64,000 nt of DNA from Sweltsa coloradensis. Its lineage: Eukaryota; Arthropoda; Insecta; Plecoptera; Chloroperlidae. Below the pieces are notes generated by a model. The model was not told where the DNA came from. It worked only from the letters and a program-made list of their open reading frames with translations, and made no database searches. Position numbers and translations under genes: made by a program. The stretch is from NCBI GenBank assembly GCA_024449915.1, contig JAMZAV010000008.1, positions 682,001-746,000 on the forward strand. Direction: 5' to 3'. Positions 5,100-44,850 of this stretch are shown here, piece after piece. Numbering within the stretch: position 1 is the first letter of the stretch; the number at the start of each line of letters is the position of its first letter.

Positions 5100-7430
5100 C
5101 AGTCAGCCCATGTCAGTCACTGATTGGAACGAATTGCAGTTTTTTGGTTTGTTTATAAAATCATTATTCATTTATAATTTACAGCTTTTTGTACAATTTC
5201 CATATACACATTTTCATGGTTAACATGAATTTGGGTCGTAGTTGGCTACAATAATTGTCTAGATAGATAATTTTCTAAACTGCCAACTGCAATCGAGGGT
5301 TGGATTTTTATGGTACTGAACATGCGCACATTCGTTTTGTTCACTTCTGATTGTAACCAAAATCTGTACTACCCTAATAAACAAAAATTCCTTAACTACG
5401 TTTTTTTTTAGTTAGCACTGTTATTCATATAGTCGGGGACATACCTACGTCTGAACTAAGTAAGAAGATCGTATCTGCATGCAAAAGTGTCAAATCGACT
5501 ATTAAATATACCTTATCTACATCTTTTTAAGCTTGTTTACAGTCACGTTTTCATGAATAACTCAAAATCTGCTTGGGCGTAGTTAAGGCCCTCTTGTTTA
5601 GTATGGCAGTAGCTAGTTGGCGGCGACCCCAGTGTAAAACTCCTATTGTATGTACTTAGGTTACTTGAACAGAGTTACATCGGGAAAAGCTGCTGTGAAC
5701 GCTACAGAGGGCAAATGGCATCCTTACATGGACAGAGGTGTTTAAGGTTTCAGCCGGCCGCATATTGAGAGAGGGACTGCTGGCTGCAGGCTATGTGGAC
5801 TTTGACCACTACACATTATTAAATAGCGAGACTAGCCCTAGGTCCAATATGCGGTGCCCCATTGAATAACATTGTTTAAGAGATGGCACACTAACTTCAG
5901 TAGGCAGCGGAATGCGGATGGGGAAGAGATAAAACACTTTCACGTTTATATTCAAAAAAATTACAAAAATAGCCTAATAAGTGATAGGCAAGTTGTGAAA
6001 ATCAACTTGTTATAGGACGCAAATGTGAAATTAGTAATGATCACGTTTTATAGTACATCCACATCTGAACACTGCAAACTGCCATTGTACAAAAAATAGT
6101 AACTAACTGAACAAAAACAACCTTGACATGGCTGCAGGAATGCGTATAGTCTACCTACACACTTACAACACTCAATGCAATAAAGCAATTTCATTTTTCC
6201 TGACACTCACATGATCAAGTATGAGCAGTAAAGACATTCATTATTCAAGAGGATTCCATTACCGTAATTCATGTCGTGTACTTAAACAGCGCAGAGTGTC
6301 GTAACCTCGCACTTCGCAGATTGCAGTGCTATTACAGTGATATCAATGCATATACCTACGCTCTATTAGATGTGGTTGCATAATAGAAGAACAGAACATT
6401 GCACAAACTCCAGAAATTACCAACTTCCAGCTCGACTATGGACTGAACCCGAATCTAGATTGGCTTTCTGGATGGTATTCAATGCTATGAGTCACGTCTA
6501 CGTATATGAGTATATAGCGCTTCTCACATTCCCGCCCGAATAATGGAGGGGCCTCGTCCACAAGTAACGTTTTACCAGATAAAATTGATGGGTCTACATC
6601 TTTGTTTGAATTCTGTTTTTTTGTTTTGTTTTTTATTACTTAGACTCTTCGCTAACGCTTTATCCTGTCGCGTTGTGGATGAGCTTTCATGGTTGATTAT
6701 CGTTGCCTTAAAAGTACGATTTCTATAAGAAATATTTCTTCGATCCGCCCCTGAGGGTACCATACAAGTGTTGCTAGTAACTAGTAGTAGTACTAGTAAT
6801 AGTAGCAGTAGTGCTAGTAATCACAACTGTTGTGATTCTACTCAGGTGAATAATAAGTTTAAGTGTACCTAATTACTTGGTTTTTTTTTTCTGATGGTAC
6901 CTTCTGATGGTCTGATGGAGCTTTAAGGACGAAAGATAATTTCACGCGAAAATTGTATAATACAATTATGTTAATGTCATACTTAACTGAAAAAAATTTA
7001 ATTAAATATTATAATTATTATTTCCTCACAATAATATTGATATAAGCCAGCAAGTCAAAATATTTTTTTTTGGATCATCAAATAATAGTATGAACCATTA
7101 GCCACATATTATTTAATTTAAGATCCCCAAGATAGTAAAAATAAAGTTATTGATTAATCTAAATCTGAATCATCAGATTATGAGTTATGATTAGGATTAA
7201 CAGGGAAGAATACCCAAAAAGGCTCAACCGTCAACCCAACCATGTTTTGTATAGGTCTATTCAATTTTTAAACTTGCCTGGTAGCTGTGGTATGATTATA
7301 TGTATCAAAGATCATGACCTTAAATTCGTCCCATGACCCACAGTCCGTTGTTAATGAATAATTTTTTATTAAACGAGTCGCCACAGGGTACACTACTTAA
7401 AGATTTAACAATTGGCAAATGCGGCAGAGA
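5100..7430. other. No gene seen upstream of the promoter array
   Basis: This stretch has no convincing exon. It holds a degenerate tag/ctag run at about 6775-6830 and several AT-rich blocks. Only short chance frames are present. Confidence 0.4.
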
Positions 7431-7702
7431 AGCCTCGCGGAGATCCAGTAACCTAGCTCCCCATCCATACCCCTCCTAATCCCATCACACTTCAACTAAG
7501 TATTTCCCATAACAGCCAAGGTATACATACAGCTAGATTTCCAGTATTCTGAAGTCTTCCTGCAAAAACTATTGGTACGTAACATACATGTTCCTAGCGA
7601 CCACAAACCTAGCGGAGATCCAGTGAACCTAGTGTTACTCCTGGCTCCACCCCTCCTACTCCCCTCCTACTCCATCTTAGCATTTCCCCTCACAGCAGAG
7701 GG

Positions 7703-7734
7703 TATATATACTGCTAGCTCTCCAGCAGACTTCA
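7703..7734 (+). promoter_or_regulatory. Core promoter of array unit 1
   Basis: TATATATA at 7703-7710 and ttcagtc with its A at 7734 place the box at -31, the classical distance. This is the first unit with an intact box; the unit before it (7522) has a degraded box and a shortened leader. Confidence 0.6.
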
Positions 7735-10700
7735 GTCTTCCTGCAAGACTCTAACACGAACATCAACCTGCAACTATCGGTACGTAACATACTTGTACCT
7801 AGCGACCACAAACATAGCGGAGATCCAGTGAACCTTGTGTTATTCCTGGCTCCACCCCACTCCTACTCCCCTCCTACGCCATCTGAGCATTTCCCCTCAC
7901 AGCCAGGGTATATATACTGCTAGCTCTCCAGCAGACTTCAGTCTTCCTGCAAGACTCTAACACGAACATCAACCTGCAACTATCGGTACGTAACATACTT
8001 GTACCTAGCGACCACAAACCTAGCGGAGATCCAGTGAACCTTGGGTAACTCCTTCCCTACTCCTGCTCCCCTCCTACTCCATCCTAGCATTTCCCCTCAC
8101 AGCCAGGGTATATATACTGCTAGCTCTCCAGCAGACTTCAGTCTTCCTGCAAGACTCTGACGCGAACTTCAACCTGCAACTATCGGTACGTAACATACTT
8201 GTACTAGCGACCACAAACCTAGCGGAGATCCAGTGAACCTTGTGTAACACCTGGCTCTACACCCATCCCCACTCCTACTCCCCTTCTACGCCATCCTAGC
8301 ATTTCCCCTCAAAGCCAGGGTATATATACTGCTAGCTCTCCAGCAGACTTCAGTCTTCCTGCAAGACTCTAACACGAACATCAACCTGCAACTATCGGTA
8401 CGTAACATACTTGTACCTAGCGACCACAAACATAGCGGAGATCCAGTGAACCTTGTGTAACACCTGGCACTACACCCATCCCCACTCCTACTCCCCTCCT
8501 ACGCCATCTGAGCATTTCCCCTCACAGCCAGGGTATATATACTGCTAGCTCTCCAACAGACTTCAGTCTTCCTGCAAGACTCTAACACGAACATCAACCT
8601 GCAACTATCGGTACGTAACATACTTGTACCTAGCGACCACAAACCTAGCGGAGATCCAGTGAACCTTGTGTAACACCTGGCACTACACCCATCCCCACTC
8701 CTACTCCCCTCCTACGCCATCCTAGCATTTCCCCTCACAGCCAGAGTATATATACTGCTAGCTCTCGAGCAGACTTCAGTCTTCCTGCAAGACTCTAACA
8801 CGAAGTTCAGCCTGGAACTATCGGTACGTTACATACTTGTACCTAGCGACCACAAACCTAGCGGAGATCCAGTGAACCTTGTGTAACACCTGGCACTACA
8901 CCCATCCCCACTCCTACTCCCCTCCTACGCCATCCTAGCATTTCCCCTCACAGCCAGGGTATATATACTGCTAGCTCTCCAGCAGACTTCAGTCTTCCTG
9001 CAAGACTCTAACACGAACATCAACCTGCAACTATCGGTACGTAACATACTTGTACCTAGCGACCACAAACATAGCGGAGATCCAGTGAACCTTGGGTAAC
9101 TCCTTCCCTACTCCTGCTCCCCTCCTACTCCATCCTAGCATTTCCCCTCACAGCCAGGGTATATATACTGCTAGCTCTCCAGCAGACTTCAGTCTTCCTG
9201 CAAGACTCTGACGCGAACTTCAACCTGCAACTATCGGTACGTAACATACTTGTACCTAGCGACCACAAACCTAGCGGAGATCCAGTGAACCTTGTGTAAC
9301 ACCTGGCTCTACACCCATCCCCACTCCTACTCCCCTCCTACTCCATCCTAGCATTTCCCCTCACAGCCAGGGTATATATACTGCTAGCTCTCCAGCAGAC
9401 TTCAGTCTTCCTGCAAGACTCTAACACGAACTTCAACCTGCAACTATCGGTACGTAACATACTTGTACCTAGCGACCACAAACCTAGCGGAGATCCAGTG
9501 AACCTTGTGTAACTCCTGGCTCTACACCCATCCCCACTCCTACTCCCCTCCTACTCCATCTTAGCATTTCCCCTCACAGCCAGGGTATATATACTGCTAG
9601 CTCTCCAGCAGACTTCAGTCTTCCTGCAAGACTCTAACACGAACTTCAACCTGCAACTATCGGTACGTAACATACTTGTACCAAGCGACGACACACCTGG
9701 AAAAGATCCAGTGAACCTTGTGTAACACCTGGCTCTACACCCATCCCTACTCCTGCTCCCCTCCTACTCCATCTAAGCATTTCCCTTCACAGCCAGGGTA
9801 TATATACTGCTAGCTCTCCAGCAGACTTCAGTCTTCCTGCAAGACTCTGACGCAAACTTCAACCTGCAACTATCGGTACGTAACATACTTGTACTTAGCG
9901 ACCACAAACCTAGCGGAGATCCAGTAGACCTTGTGTAACACCTGGCTCTACACCCATCCCCACTCCTGCTCCCCTCCTACTCCATCTTAGTATTTCCCCT
10001 CACAGCCAGGGTGTATATACTGCTAGCTCTCAGTCAGACTTCAGTCTTCCGTCAAACTTTGACACGAACATCAACCTGCAACTATCAGGACGTAACATAC
10101 TTTTACCTAGCGACGACAAACCTAGCCGAGATCCAGTGAACCTTGTGTAACTCCTGGCTGCACCCCCATCCCCACTTCTACTACCCTTCTACTCCATCCT
10201 AGCACTTCCCCTCACAGCCAGGGTATATATACTGCAAGCTCTTGAGTGGACTTCAGTTTTCCTGCAAGACTTTAACACGAACTTCAACCTGCATTTATCG
10301 GTACGTTACATACTTGTACTTAGCGACCACAAAACTAGTGGAGATCCAGTGAACCTTGGGTAACTCCTGGCTCTACATCCATCCCCACTCCTACTCCCCT
10401 CCTACTCCATCTTAACATTTCCCCTTATAGCCAGGGTATATATACTGGTAGCTCTCCAGCGGATTTATGTCTTCTTGCAAGACTCTGACACGAACTTCAA
10501 CCTGCAATTTATCGGGACGTAACATACTTGTACCTAGCGACGACAAGACTAGCGGAGATCCAGTGAACCTTGTGTTACACCTGGTTACACCCATCCCCAC
10601 TCCTGCTCCCCTCCTTTTCCATCTTAATATTTCCCCTCACAGCCAGGGTGTATATACTGCTAGCTCTCCAGCAGACTTCAGTCTTCCTGCAAGACTCTGA

Positions 10701-10840
10701 CGCGAACTTCAACCTGCAACTATCGGTACGTAACATACTTGTACTTAGCGACTACAAACCTAGCCGAGATCCAGTAAACCTTGTGGTACACCTGGCTCCA
10801 CCACCATCCCCACTCCTACTCCCCTCCTACTCCATCTTAG

Positions 10841-10893
10841 CATTTCCTCTCACAGCCAGGGTATATATACTGCTAGCTCTCCAGCAGACTTCA
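10841..10893 (+). promoter_or_regulatory. Core promoter of the last array unit (unit 16)
   Basis: gcatttcctctcacag lies just upstream of TATATATA (10862-10869), and the initiator tcagtc has its A at 10893, 31 bp after the first T of the box. In most other units the upstream word is gcatttcccc; its reverse (ggggaaatgc) loosely resembles a Rel/NF-kB site. This unit is closest to exon 2. Confidence 0.6.
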
Positions 10894-10938
10894 GTCTTCC
10901 TGCAAGACTCTAACACGAACTTCAACCTGCAACTATCG
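10893..10938 (+). other. Predicted noncoding first exon (last unit)
   Basis: From the initiator A the leader runs 46 nt to aactatcg|gtacgt, a good donor. It contains no ATG. Its first 17 nt (agtcttcctgcaagact) form a 6-bp stem with a 5-nt loop at the predicted cap. Equivalent exons occur in the other units; two of them (donors near 10090 and 10514) have lost the GT, reading ggacgt. Confidence 0.6.
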
Positions 10939-11309
10939 GTACGTAACATACTTGTATTAAAATCATAAAAAAATTGCTTGACTATTGAATTTGGTTCATT
11001 ACGAGAACTCACAAAAATCAATGCCCATGCAATATTGTTGTGATTTTGAGTTTAAAAGTTTTAATTTTTTAATTTTAATTTTAATTTAAAACTATTCATC
11101 TAAGCAAAGGATATTTGGCTAAATGTTAAAATTCTTTAGAATTAAAAACAAATAAATGTATGTCTTCTATTGCAAAAAATTAAATGAGAGGCAGAATATG
11201 TTCATAAAAAAAATACTATCAATAATCTTTATTCTTTTTTAAAACAGCTTATTTTGAAGTATCTTATTTTTTCAGACTCGATTGGAAATCGTACCAACAT
11301 CAATCAGTC

Positions 11310-14300
11310 ACGAAAGTATTCATCATAGCCGTACTGCTTGCCATGTCTTCAGTCTACATGGCTGCTGAAGACGCTACGCGAATGTGTAAGTTTGATCAAG
11401 AATCATAAAATATGTTACTTCTACAAATGAATTTGATAATAACATTTGCATTCTGCATTATCAAATGTAATTCATTTTCTATTATTCTTCAATTCACTTT
11501 TTAGAGACAGCGGGTCAATTAATTACATTGGATGACATCAGGGGGCCAGTGTAATAGTCCATATACTGAAATAAACCCTCGCTCATACATTCGTTAGGTA
11601 ATGACATTATAAATAATGTTTGTTTGGTCAGTTTAAAGGCAATATATTTTCGTTGTAGTACAGTTCCATCAATTCAGATCTATAATGCAATTACAATTCA
11701 GAAGTTAAAAAATTACCATAGCGGTGGTCTAATTGGCTAAGGCGCCTACTTGAAATGTGGGAGATCCGGTTGGAAACCCCGGTCGATATGTTTTTTTTAT
11801 TTGTATTTATTTATATTTATATTTTTTATTTTTCGATTGTATGACCTATTAACAATGAACGTGTTTGCATGATTGCTTTTATTACAAATCACAGTATTAT
11901 TAGTGGGAGACTAATATTTAAATAGGTCTAATGGAACATTATAATATTAATTAAAATAAGGTACCAATAAAGATAGGTATTTTAAGTAAATTTGTACAAG
12001 TGTATGACTTAATATAGAGAGTGCCTTCTTATATAAAACCGTAATATGTTACAGCATGGATGGTACGTGCCAGTGTACACATTCAAGGAGAAAGCGATGG
12101 CAAGGGAGAACCTCTCATCTCCAAGACCCCGGGATTCAAGGTTCCCTGCACGGATGAGGGGAAGGATGATTGCCGCAAGATGTGCATGGCCCTGGTGAGT
12201 TGACTAAATTTGTTGATGTTACTAGGAAAACGCTAAAGTCCCGTCGCGTTGTTGAGCGAGCACCGGTACGTGCAACAACGACCCGAGTACGACATTCCCA
12301 TAATGTTACACACCAATAAGTCTTTAAGGTCTTAACCGATTTAGCTGAAAATTTTAAAAATAGGAGAGAATGTTGTACTTATTGACCCTGCAAAATTTCA
12401 TAACGATCGGATTTTTTTTTTTTTTTATAATCAACGATCGGATTTTTTTCAAAAACTATACAGCAACCCGCCTAGGTGGTATGTACATGTGTGAAAAATT
12501 TCAGGTCGATCAGAGAAACGGTGCGACCTGTATCGAAGCAGTAACAGAAAAAAACAAACAAACAAACAAAAAAAACAGACATTCGAGCCATAAGAGTCAA
12601 GTGGAGACGCTAGCTACGCTCGCTAAAATATAAGGTACAAATTAAAAAAGTTAGTCAACCAGGGATTGAACCTGGGACCTCTACGTTCTTGGAAGATGCT
12701 GAAGACAACAGATAATTCTGTATATTTTTTATTTTGGACTGTTAGACATTGTCAATAAAGTGTGTAGCGCACATTTCAATGCCTATTACACTACATACGA
12801 TATAAACTTTATAAATAAAAACTAACTCCATAACCCTAGAGTTAAGTTATGATGCTAGTTCTTAGTTTTATAGTAGACGACTATGTTTGCTGCTATGTTA
12901 ACTATGATGCTGTTTTGACCATTTTTTAAAATAGAAATAAAGAAGTGCCTCCACCGAGGATTGAGCCCGGGACCTCTGCTGTCGGAACTATAAAACTGGG
13001 CAACAGAATAGATAATTACGATTGTATGAAGGCTATTGTTAATTTTAGGTCCGGTGTTGGCTTACATTATTGTTAGTATTTAACTAGGTAGTGAAATACG
13101 ATTGATAGACAGCACCGCTTGAAACAGGAGAAAATGCAAGTTACGAATTTTCCAATTTGTAGTGAGGACAATATTACTTTGTTCTCTTGTATTTCGCCGT
13201 GTAATTATTAATAATAACATTAAGAATTGCTAAGGGCCACGCCACTGGTGACTTTTAAAAGCTGTTAATTCTAAGTTTTGATAAGAATAGTAACTTGTAT
13301 AATCCGTGCTAGAATTGCAGGTACAAATATGTGACAATTAATCAAAAAAAATATTTTGATTTTGATTGACCGTCATTTACGTATTCGAGTTTATTCAATT
13401 TTATTATGAATGAGGGGATTGGTTCTGCACGTGAATAATACTTTTTTATGATCGGTATGTATTTTGTATTTGCCAATATGTTAGACAGTCGGGCGCGTCT
13501 AAAATTAGCTACTCAACGTAAGTTGCCACACGCTTTCTTTAATAATTTTAGTATAATTTTACAAGCAACCATTTTTATTCTAAACCCCTGTTTCATTGCA
13601 ATGAAAGTGGTAGCTTATTTGTTGATATATAAATATATTGGGGGTTGAGTTTGGGGAGGGGGGAGGGTGGGTGATATGTTTGAACTACGGGGACCTAAAT
13701 GGGCGTTGTCCGGTTCTATCCCGACAGCATTGAATAGGCAATTAATCCGAGCTAAATGTTTCGTCAGCGATAACGCGTGAACCCACAAATGAACGAAATT
13801 ACATTCATACTGTAGGAAAGTGTAATCTTTCATCTTTGCGTGGATATACAGAACTCAGCTCTGCTCTATTCCAAATATTAATATTATTTTTTAGTTTAAG
13901 TGAACTCTACAACTACACCGTTTCCAAACATTCCAAACGAAAGAAAAAACACATAACAAACATTTATCCGTGACGCCAGTACAGACTTGGGTACCCGCCT
14001 AGCTTTCTGAAAACTGTGGTAGTACTAGATTATGACCTCAAAATTTATCCTATATAAAGCAACAAAATCTTGAGTTCGAAATAAACTTAGCAACCATGTA
14101 GTACTAAAATTAATTGAATTAATTTAAAATTCTGATCGCTCATTGGCCCAAAAAAAACTTGCACAGCTGCTTTTTTGCTTGTTATATTGGCACTACGTGT
14201 GTCTCAGGGCATAGGGCATAGCGGTCACCCACTCTACCCCTGACCACGCCTGAGGTTGCTTAACTTCGGCGTTCGAGTGGTCGGGAGTGAGTCTTGACGC

Positions 14301-15755
14301 GATCGTTGCATGCTAGACGTGTTTAGACGCATAGTTGTTAGCCATGGGTAGGATCGTCTCAAGAGTTCTGATATTGAGGGGGGTTAGGGGGGAGGCTGGC
14401 GCAAATCCATCAGTGAAAAATCCATAAATTCGTAGGAGGGAGGCTTTAGAGAGTGACATTTATTTTCAAATAGTCGAATTTAGGGCGGGGTTCTGAATGG
14501 CTTGCCCCGTTTTTTTTTTCATAACACGGTATAATTAAGCGAGCGAAGCGAGCGTTTCCATTTGACTCTGCCGGAAAAATAAGTCACTGGTTTTGTTTTT
14601 TTTGTTTTTTGTTTTTTGTTTTTTTTTTTTTTTGTTTGTTTGTATGTCTCGCCATAACGTTCGAACGGAGGCTCGGATCGAGTTGAAATTTTGACCATCC
14701 GCAAGCTTCGTTCTCGATTGAATGCCATTAGTTTTGTGGCAAAATCGTTCAAAAAGTTAAAAAGTTACATTAAAGTTAATCGAAAGTTTTTTTTTTCAAA
14801 CTAAACGGCGACAAAATCTGAGATAGCCAAATCATTTAGAATGTCCGTCCGGTCACGAATATGATAATTTTATTTTGATCCGATAAGTAGTGTAGATGGA
14901 AATTACATTATAACAAAAGTAACGTTGCCATGGCAACGAAAATACGCGCGAAGTTTCTAATGCACTGCCACCTAGAAGTAATCAAAATACTTTCGAGGAA
15001 GCAGTCTATTATTTGTCAACAAAGAGTTTAAATAGTTTTCCCAATGAGTCAAGGTCCTCTAGATGGCGGTGGATTTTATCTACAAAGTAAAGGTTTACAC
15101 ACGGGTTTACCCAAATACCTTGGCAATAATAAATAATATTGGAAACATGGCCCTGTGTACAGCGAACGTCGCAAATTTGAAAATTTAAAAAAATGTGCAA
15201 TGTGGGTCTAGCTATAGCACGTGCTCGCTTATCAACGCGTCCAACTGAGCGTTTCCTAGTTTTAAGTCATATTAGGAGAAAATGAGGCCGGGAGCTAACT
15301 TTATTGTGACGCCCATTTCGTATATTCCAATATCAGCAAAAGCTCTGACATATATAATCAAAAGACCGGCTTTAGCAAATTAGAATTGCACATGTTTTAA
15401 AATTGTATTATACTAGTAATAACATAATACCATACAAAAATGCAAAAACTTGCAAAAAAGGGGCCAAACCTAAAACGAGGAAGATACAAGTGGCTCAACT
15501 GCATAAAGTGGTGAGATCTAGAAGTGTGGCCAAGCCCCAGGCTGAAATCGTGGGAAGCATGGCCCTCTCGTAGGGGTCTATGAATACGACTTTTTCGATC
15601 CATCCATTGGTAGACCGAAGGGCGGCGTGGCTGATGCTCTCATTAGGACGACTATGAATTCTAGTGGAATAAATATGTTGCCCCGAACTCTCTTGAAATG
15701 TGTGTACTTAAATTAATGTGTACTCTCGGTTCTTCCACAGGGAAGATGTAGTTGA
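11310..15755 (+). CDS. Spliced gene for a small secreted four-cysteine peptide (join 11310-11385, 12055-12194, 15741-15755)
   Basis: Exon 2 (11276-11385) follows a pyrimidine-rich acceptor ending ttttttcag and ends at a GTAAGT donor in phase 1. Exon 3 (12055-12194) follows atgttacag, stays open for 140 nt and ends at GTGAGT in phase 0. The best last exon begins at 15741 after ttcttccacag and adds Gly-Arg-Cys-Ser before TGA. The frame upstream of the first ATG reads KVFIIAVLLAMSSVYMA, a clear signal peptide with a likely cut before AED. The codon where Met is expected is ACG (11310); the first real ATG is 11343, inside the hydrophobic core. The mature part would be about 58 residues: an acidic start, a PLISKTPGFKVP segment, then cysteines spaced C-x7-C-x3-C-x5-C. 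Secretion is inferred, and the function (defence, saliva, venom or matrix) is unknown. I do not recognise the family. Transcription is expected from the tandem array upstream. Exons 2 and 3 are well supported; exon 4 and the start are less sure. Confidence 0.6.
11717..11790 (+). tRNA. tRNA-Phe(GAA)-like sequence, probably a pseudogene or SINE head
   Basis: It folds as a cloverleaf. The 7-bp acceptor has one mismatch (catagcg/cgatatg), the A box is tggtctaattggctaagg, the anticodon stem cctac/gtggg carries loop ttgaaat with anticodon GAA, and the T stem is ccgg/ccgg. A run of T follows immediately (11791 on), suitable as a Pol III terminator. The B box reads ggttggaaacc where ggttcgaaacc is expected. 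It lies inside intron 2 of the peptide gene, on the same strand. Confidence 0.5.
12055..12194 (+). CDS. Exon 3 of the peptide gene
   Basis: It is a 140-nt island of higher GC than the flanking introns, bounded by atgttacag and gtgagt. With the single base carried from exon 2 it encodes 47 residues. It starts SWMVRASVHIQG and ends CRKMCMAL, and contains three of the four predicted cysteines. This is the strongest single coding exon in the window. Confidence 0.7.
12222..12628 (-). mobile_element. CTAG-ended Helitron-like nonautonomous element, copy a
   Basis: It begins ctaggaaaacgctaaagtcc and closes with cgctagctacgctcgct, inverted relative to the orientation ending in CTAG. An internal A/C-rich aaacaaacaaac segment is shared with the other copies. 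It lies in the intron between exon 3 and the predicted last exon. Confidence 0.6.
12640..14215. other. Intronic DNA with tRNA-like minus-strand fragments; no exon seen
   Basis: Two short inverse T-arm fragments (gggattgaacctgggacctc near 12662 and ggattgagcccgggacctct near 12958) are probably SINE heads on the minus strand. A G-rich run at 13638-13672 could form a quadruplex. No further cysteine-coding exon was found. An alternative acceptor at 13320 (gaattgcag) has a weak pyrimidine tract. Confidence 0.4.
14219..14290 (-). repeat. 5S-derived SINE head, truncated
   Basis: The reverse complement contains cgccgaagttaagcaacc and gggtagagtgggtgacc, matching the 5S-like head at 1009-1085. The SINE body is missing. 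Confidence 0.65.
14533..15259 (+). mobile_element. Helitron-like nonautonomous element, copy b (diverged)
   Basis: The start aattaagcgagcgaagcgag and the end gagcgtttcctag match the termini of the other copies, with a T-rich gttttttgtttt tract near the start. The centre is unlike the closer copies, so this is another subfamily. Confidence 0.55.
15264..15717. other. Intron sequence before the predicted last exon
   Basis: No repeat was recognised and no conserved exon is evident. Confidence 0.35.
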
Positions 15756-24095: not shown

Positions 24096-24465
24096 TATAT
24101 TATTAACACTTCAAAACACATTTTAAGAGCAATATTGTTTATTCTGCTGCGAATACATGAGGTATTCGAACCTTCGTCAGATATCATTAAAAAAACAGAA
24201 ATAAGGGGTTATTTTGTTTTAAAAAAGTGGAACAAATTGATAGTGGATTTTCATTTTTTTTTAAACGTTATTTGTTAAACTTTATTGAAAATGTACGCTG
24301 GCTTAGTGGTAAGCAAAATATATCCTGGTTTGCTATTATGTACTGTTGTATATAAAACAAGTCAATAACTAACTGAAGGGACAAGTGTTAAATATATGCA
24401 GGAATGATACAACGTACTATATTAGTCGTTGTGTCAGAGCAACATTGCTGCCCATTTCAAGCGAT

Positions 24466-24700
24466 AGTAACCCCTCCCGCTAAATGTTGTTCCTATAAGT
24501 AACCTTCGTAACCCCTCCCACTACATGCTGTTCCTAGCACTAGTAGCCCTAGTAACCCCTCCCACTACATGCTGTTCCTAGCACTAGTAGCCCTAGTAAC
24601 CCCTCCCACTACATGCTGTTCCTAGCACTAGTAGCCCTAGTAACCCCTCCCACTACATGCTGTTCCTAGCGCTAGTAACCCTTCACGCTACATACTGCTG
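24466..24700 (+). repeat. 44-bp minisatellite, about 5 copies
   Basis: The unit runs from taacccctcccactacatgc through tgttcctagcactagtagcc. Three central copies are nearly identical and the outer ones are diverged. Confidence 0.9.
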
Positions 24701-44606: not shown

Positions 44607-44850
44607 GACTTACTACTACCAATACCACTACCAATACCAATTCCAATACCACTACCACTACCACTACCACTACCACTACCACTACCACTACCACTACCAC
44701 TACCACTACCACTACCACTACCACTACCACTACCACACCAGTACCACTACCACTACCACTACCACTACCACTACCACAACCAGTACCAGTACCAGTACCA
44801 GTACCACTAGCACTACCACTACCACTACCATTACCACAGCTACTACTACT
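44607..44850 (+). repeat. (TACCAC)n hexamer repeat
   Basis: More than 30 taccac/taccag units with a few variant units. Long frames on both strands here (His-Tyr or Val runs) come from the repeat. Confidence 0.95.

Follow-up and report, generated by a model that had tools for sequence, protein, structure and literature searches.

The array examined here has a real and old structure and occurs at many copies of a gene family, and the firmest constraint across its units begins at the predicted transcription start site. It was analysed in a 64,000-nt stretch of Sweltsa coloradensis contig JAMZAV010000008.1 (C8 here; positions 682,001 to 746,000, forward strand), referred to below as the window. 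We give an even chance to the reading that the array in the window consists of predicted Pol II core promoters, each followed by a predicted 46-nt non-coding first exon, with several starts likely feeding one gene. Comparison with related loci is best read as indicating an old, family-wide array that was recently expanded and homogenised in the window copy.

Promoter-like units in the window

The window contains 17 tandem units on the + strand (7441-10956), 16 plus one degenerate unit (unit 1), so the originally noted count of about 16 units at ~213-bp spacing was right. Unit starts, anchored on AGATCCAGT, run from 7441 and 7616 to 10767, with successive spacings of 175, 205, 206, 199, 213 (four times), 200, 213 (three times), 212, 213, 214 and 211 bp. 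The standard unit is 213 bp long, and several units are shorter through small deletions. The array, its parts and the downstream exons are as follows.

7201..7434, + strand: flank directly 5' of the array; several paralogous arrays have similar upstream sequence
7441..7615, + strand: unit 1, degenerate, 175 bp; reads TATACATA, TCAGTC missing, GTACGT donor kept
7616..9916, + strand: units 2-12, each with TATATATA, TCAGTC at +31 and a GTACGT donor
9917..10766, + strand: units 13-16, in partial decay; 13 and 16 read TGTATATA, 14 and 15 have an altered initiator, 13 and 15 an altered donor
10767..10956, + strand: unit 17, intact and gene-proximal; substitutions at 0/84 positions from TATA to donor and 7/94 upstream
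10862..10869, + strand: TATA box TATATATA of unit 17
10893..10938, + strand: predicted non-coding first exon of unit 17, 46 nt, initiator A to donor, from motif geometry and the conserved +1..+16
10939..10944, + strand: donor GTACGT of unit 17; an intron up to 11276 would span 337 nt
11276..11385, + strand: exon 2, with 34 untranslated nt followed by a signal-peptide-like stretch
12055..12194, + strand: exon 3, with the conserved peptide part ESDGKGEPLISKTPGFKVPCTDEGKDDCRKMCMAL

A TATA box about 30 nt 5' of a TCAGTC-type initiator, a GT splice donor and an Sm site are motifs of established meaning. The TATA box TATATATA is present in 14 of the 17 window units, a correctly placed TCAGTC initiator in 14 and the GTACGT donor, which had been claimed for most units, in 15. 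From the first T of the TATA box to the initiator A the distance is 31 nt, and the leader from there to the donor measures 46 nt. The exact combination TATATATA-N21-TCAGTC occurs in 12 of 17 units against a mean of 0.00 in 100 shuffles, which bears out the claimed pairing of the two motifs 31 bp apart. Under looser rules (TATAWAWA, TCAKTY, GTRNGT), TATA box, initiator and donor were found together in 13 of 17 units. A loose TATA-initiator pair appeared in only 0.03% of 20,000 trials with shuffled single units, and elsewhere in the window such pairs numbered 0 on the + strand and 2 on the - strand. None of the 17 leaders contains an ATG, in agreement with the ATG-free leader of ~46 nt first noted; unit 15 has one ATG, which begins one base before the predicted start.

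A sensitive blastn search found no unit-like place elsewhere in the window. Units 4 and 9 (8027-8225 and 9078-9277), five units apart, are near-identical and have one 13-bp deletion in common, and this likeness is a trace of multi-unit duplication within the array. Other repeats in the window are a 44-bp minisatellite (5 copies, 24465-24682) and a TACCAC hexamer array (38 copies, 44611-44837).

The gene family and its arrays

The acceptor AG before 11276, which in the window lies 34 nt 5' of the start codon position, is conserved in 13 of 13 aligned copies. The claim of acceptor-bounded coding exons just 3' of the array was thereby confirmed, and an acceptor conserved at this distance before the start codon leads one to expect an upstream leader exon. 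Two corrections apply: the exons belong to a gene family and not to a lone gene, and the predicted start codon of the window copy (11310-11312) is ACG, with ATG in 11 of the 12 other aligned copies.

Gene models were obtained for 13 copies, and three further copies yielded none. An ATG-started frame is open through exon 3 in six of the 13 (C6064b, C6064c, C11131c, C11462a, C11462b and C4154a). Each of these six predicts a piece of 73-76 residues that opens like a signal peptide and has cysteines further on; the other gene copies carry damage of various kinds. Relative to C6064b, the window copy lacks one base in exon 2 and two in exon 3, so that its frame reopens, but two cysteines are replaced. 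It is doubtful, from its sequence, that this copy makes a secreted peptide, and with an ACG start codon and two cysteines replaced the proposal that the array tunes or boosts peptide output of the window copy found no support.

Across exon 3, dN was below dS in 13 of 15 pairs compared, with small per-pair counts; one further pair was identical and one gave 0.037 vs 0.035. Exon 3 of C11462a and C11462b shows zero codon differences, yet the second introns of these copies differ (K 0.145), which suggests conversion. Searches returned no homologue for the window peptide or for the 7-row alignment A1, no Pfam family for the peptide at cut-off and no matching solved structure.

No family-wide exon 4 was settled, and window exon 3, if unspliced, meets a stop two codons on. 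At window position 15742 a good acceptor in phase with exon 3 would, judged by eye, add GRCS before a stop and may open the last exon of this copy; as a fourth exon the candidate was rejected, having no blastn match in the paralogous sequence compared. Within intron 2, ARAGORN reported a tRNA-Phe-like sequence at 11717-11791, perhaps a tRNA-derived repeat. A second exon 3 copy, partial and inverted, adjoins the C2180 gene (C2180:83510-83646).

The unit was searched against the 1.45-Gb assembly of 16,871 contigs, in which the window belongs to C8. Matches occur at no fewer than 174 places genome-wide, and the 150 places listed lie on 14 contigs. From partial stretches of 12 of the 13 other contigs, leaving out C3722 and further places on C11019, 20 additional arrays of about 3 to 11 units each were read. 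The isolated C2180 unit described below and two leftover fragments are excluded from these counts. Homology to exon 2 and/or exon 3 was found downstream, on the same strand and in the same order, for 15 of the 21 arrays, window included. In the sequence examined around the six others, three have only the array-adjacent intron and three have nothing of the gene. Some contigs are possibly alternative haplotypes, so that the true loci may number fewer than 21; the best partner of each gene region is 85 to 96% identical.

As in the window, the first unit reads TATACATA or TATACATG in 12 of the 20 other arrays. The unit nearest the gene is without a TATA box in 11 of 21 arrays. An isolated copy of core promoter, leader and donor was noted at 56231-56338 of L029 (C2180:55900-58400), ~30 kb from the C2180 array and on the opposite strand. 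This copy and the last unit of the C2180 array have in common a TATA-side deletion and a GTATGT donor. Separately, window positions 6858-7047, 5' of the array, are homologous to sequence ~1.1 kb downstream of C6064b exon 3, and look as if they were a remnant of a lost preceding tandem gene copy.

Two modes of turnover can be distinguished. Within each of the arrays C6064a/b, C11131b and C4154b the units are 74-77% alike; compared with the unit at the same position in a sister array, 27 of 29 match at 93-100%. Judged by these matches, the arrays were evidently copied whole with their locus and then frozen. In the window array the units are 91% alike, and for 16 of 17 the nearest relative lies inside the same array. 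The closest locus to the window, C2180, has a gene region 92.6% identical and 8 units vs 17. This homogeneity, together with the difference in unit number, points to recent expansion and homogenisation of the window array. The number of units per array presumably rises and falls by unequal exchange.

Constraint across units and alternative readings

A profile built from the window units gave 170 unit hits, of which 149 were at least 150 nt and 124 at least 190 nt long. Rates were counted in parsimony steps for each column, using a tree built from the 124 units, and ranked among 213 circular windows of the unit; these overlap, so a rank of 1/213 is not a formal probability. The start position (+1) had been set by the earlier sequence-only reading, before the constraint analysis.

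Among the 124 units, +1..+16 was the slowest 16-bp stretch (1/213; 2.50 vs 5.54 steps per column). The 46-nt leader was the slowest of its length on the tree that included the leader. On a leader-free tree, +1..+16 remained at 1/213, both raw and after base/CpG correction, and -31..+16 also ranked 1/213; the whole leader dropped from 1 to 10, 3 and 7/213. On all-column trees, +1..+16 ranked 1 without the window units and again 1 in both open-frame and damaged-gene arrays, 3/213 in arrays for which no exons were found and 65/213 (not slow) in the window alone. The corresponding ranks of -31..+16 out of 213 were 10 without the window, 31 for open-frame, 5 for damaged-gene and 3 for no-exon arrays, and 20 for the window alone. 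Taken singly, TATATATA ranked 29/213 and TCAGTC 34/213. The firm signal is thus the block starting at +1, with a weaker one on the TATA side. Homogenisation or a binding site can also leave part of a repeat conserved.

Donor positions do not rank among the slow ones (GT 129/213, GTACGT 188/213), and the claim that every donor is important is unsupported. Most units nevertheless have the GT: of 147, 134 have the G and 142 the T. We infer that with many donors in a row each one is dispensable, and that starts lie in upstream units. The reading as promoter plus first exon stood in part: in its favour are the slowest block at +1..+16, the exons that follow 15 of 21 arrays, the six open copies and the exon 2 acceptor, and against it is the lack of donor constraint. 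Among the 149 units, leader ATGs numbered 6 (4 at one-step sites; 5 of the 6 in one column) vs 65 elsewhere (16 at one-step sites), which is only suggestive of ATG avoidance in the leader. The contrast within unit 17 between TATA-to-donor and upstream positions was considered as main evidence for selection on the proximal promoter and was dropped, because 11 of 21 arrays have lost the proximal TATA and conversion accounts for unit 17 equally well.

Arrays without a gene offer a further comparison. In the six arrays for which no exons were found, TATA box and initiator are present together in 5/11, 6/11, 5/11, 2/5, 2/5 and 4/6 units, much like the gene-linked arrays. At least one complete unit is kept in 6/6 open-frame, 7/9 damaged-gene and 6/6 no-gene-found arrays; since every class mostly keeps a complete unit, such retention does not discriminate between them. 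The suggestion that copy number is important gained no support here, as arrays without a gene found keep their motifs equally well.

These observations bear on the alternative that the array is a bystander, in which promoter and first exon were duplicated by unequal exchange, each locus uses only one or two units and the rest are neutral, spreading and drifting with the family. This explanation is possible, with a minority share of the probability. It fits the motifs of no-gene arrays being about as intact as those of gene-linked ones, the drifting donors, and the difference in length between close loci (17 vs 8 units). Decay at the array edges is also expected from unequal exchange. A test for selection against deletions in the TATA-initiator spacing likewise found none, with 0.54 distinct deletion intervals per bp vs 0.46-0.48 elsewhere in the unit, so that deletions there are not depleted. 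Against it, the units are old, as the 74-77% likeness within arrays and the 93-100% matches to sister units indicate, yet +1..+16 is among the slowest stretches, and purely neutral copies should not have this block in common.

An enhancer-like repeat, in which repeated transcription-factor sites (the C-rich stretch and +1..+16) boost one start site and the units are not separate starts, is unlikely. The window units do have a C-rich upstream half, and a 126-bp repeat that acts as a CYP51 enhancer in Penicillium digitatum provides a precedent in the text available from PMC4990540. However, the most conserved 16-bp stretch has the predicted start site as its first base, which an enhancer would not need. 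Nor would an enhancer need the TATA-initiator spacing of 31, which 63 of the 76 units that could be measured have (13/76 deviate). The proximal units without a TATA box make a single TATA-driven proximal start unlikely in those 11 arrays.

We consider it very improbable that the unit is instead an intron plus an 83-nt exon, lying between a C-rich tract ending in CACAG and the GTACGT donor, with the TATA box there by chance. The consensus pyrimidine-rich tract does end in CACAG 6 nt before the TATA box, with the donor 83 nt after, but the G of its AG is replaced in 55 of the 140 units with a letter there, and the acceptor-like AG ranks 164/213. Moreover, successive exons of 83 nt would break the frame, 83 not being divisible by 3, and stops are seen by eye in two frames. 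An internal exon was rejected as the main reading on the non-conservation of this AG. With neither donor nor acceptor-like AG slow, the constraint fits a promoter and not an internal exon.

Tandem units, each with a brief leader exon and a GT donor, are the layout of spliced-leader (SL) RNA genes, which the ~200-bp units here resemble, but an array of such genes, with a short capped leader exon used in trans, has a negligible probability: an Sm-like site (RATTTTG type) occurs in 0 of 124 units, no Rfam match in the array reached the gathering score, the leader sequence varies between units, and 15 of 21 arrays stand in cis to members of a single gene family.

Proposed mechanism and comparison with known systems

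Under the promoter and first-exon reading, TATA box and initiator (TCAGTC), at their spacing of 31 nt, would place the start at the A, and the RNA would continue through the remaining units of the array. The first usable donor would be spliced to the acceptor at 11275/11276, and a unit with a drifted donor could use the donor of the next unit. Each start would give a near-identical leader joined to the same coding exons, and hence near-identical messages. Unequal exchange, in lengthening or shortening the array, would add or remove promoters. Several units would probably be used under this reading, and their number may have an effect.

A wider proposal, which we put forward only tentatively, is that satellite-like arrays of 3 to 17 Pol II promoter and leader-exon units per copy of a host gene family provide many starts for one spliced message, that array length acts on a secreted peptide like a volume knob open to evolution, and that the architecture predates most of the family duplications. 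The usual route to more output is whole-gene amplification; here promoter and leader exon are multiplied 5' of the gene, and such multiplication at many family copies would raise dosage by another route. In front of closely related genes of one genome the arrays range naturally from 3 to 17 units, and one can ask there whether added promoters sum, compete or interfere.

Among the papers listed in a search of open-library literature with limited terms, none describes Pol II promoter and first-exon units arrayed naturally in front of a host gene. The protocadherins and UGT1A have several units of promoter and first exon that share the downstream exons to which they are spliced; their first exons are unlike one another and encode distinct proteins, whereas here they are near-identical and non-coding. 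rDNA spacer promoters are tandem promoter copies 5' of a gene, homogenised by unequal exchange; they are served by RNA polymerase I and lack a leader exon. The resemblance lies in a tandemly repeated promoter upstream of a gene, and the difference in the polymerase, since the motifs here are those of polymerase II.

Mouse LINE-1 5'UTR monomers, according to the portion of PMC9022269 available, are tandem promoter units, and a second monomer enhances promoter activity. Like the units here, they lie in tandem 5' of a coding region, in numbers that vary per copy (PMC9022269, same portion). In contrast, the LINE-1 repeats are those of a retrotransposon, and the units described here precede a spliced gene family and have a TATA box, an initiator and a leader-exon donor. 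No mobile-element coding was recognised in the family exons, which encode a short secreted-type peptide with no Pfam family at cut-off. A unit that occurs independently of the gene would fit dispersed satellite DNA; gene exons accompany 15 of the 21 arrays and are missing from 6 in the sequence examined, and C2180 also has a solitary unit.

Repeats in fungal CYP51 promoters, of 34 bp in Aspergillus fumigatus and 126 bp in Penicillium digitatum, are linked to higher expression, and in azole-resistant fungi they are called promoter duplication or enhancer (PMC4990540, in part). They too are repeats in a promoter region; unlike the present units, they are described in that part of the source with no mention of a repeated start site or exon. 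In Arabidopsis FWA, tandem repeats lie in the promoter region where transcription starts, and their copy number differs between species (excerpt of PMC2270340). The FWA repeats, in the same excerpt, number two to four copies, are SINE-related and have been studied for methylation, unlike the arrays described here, which reach up to 17 units.
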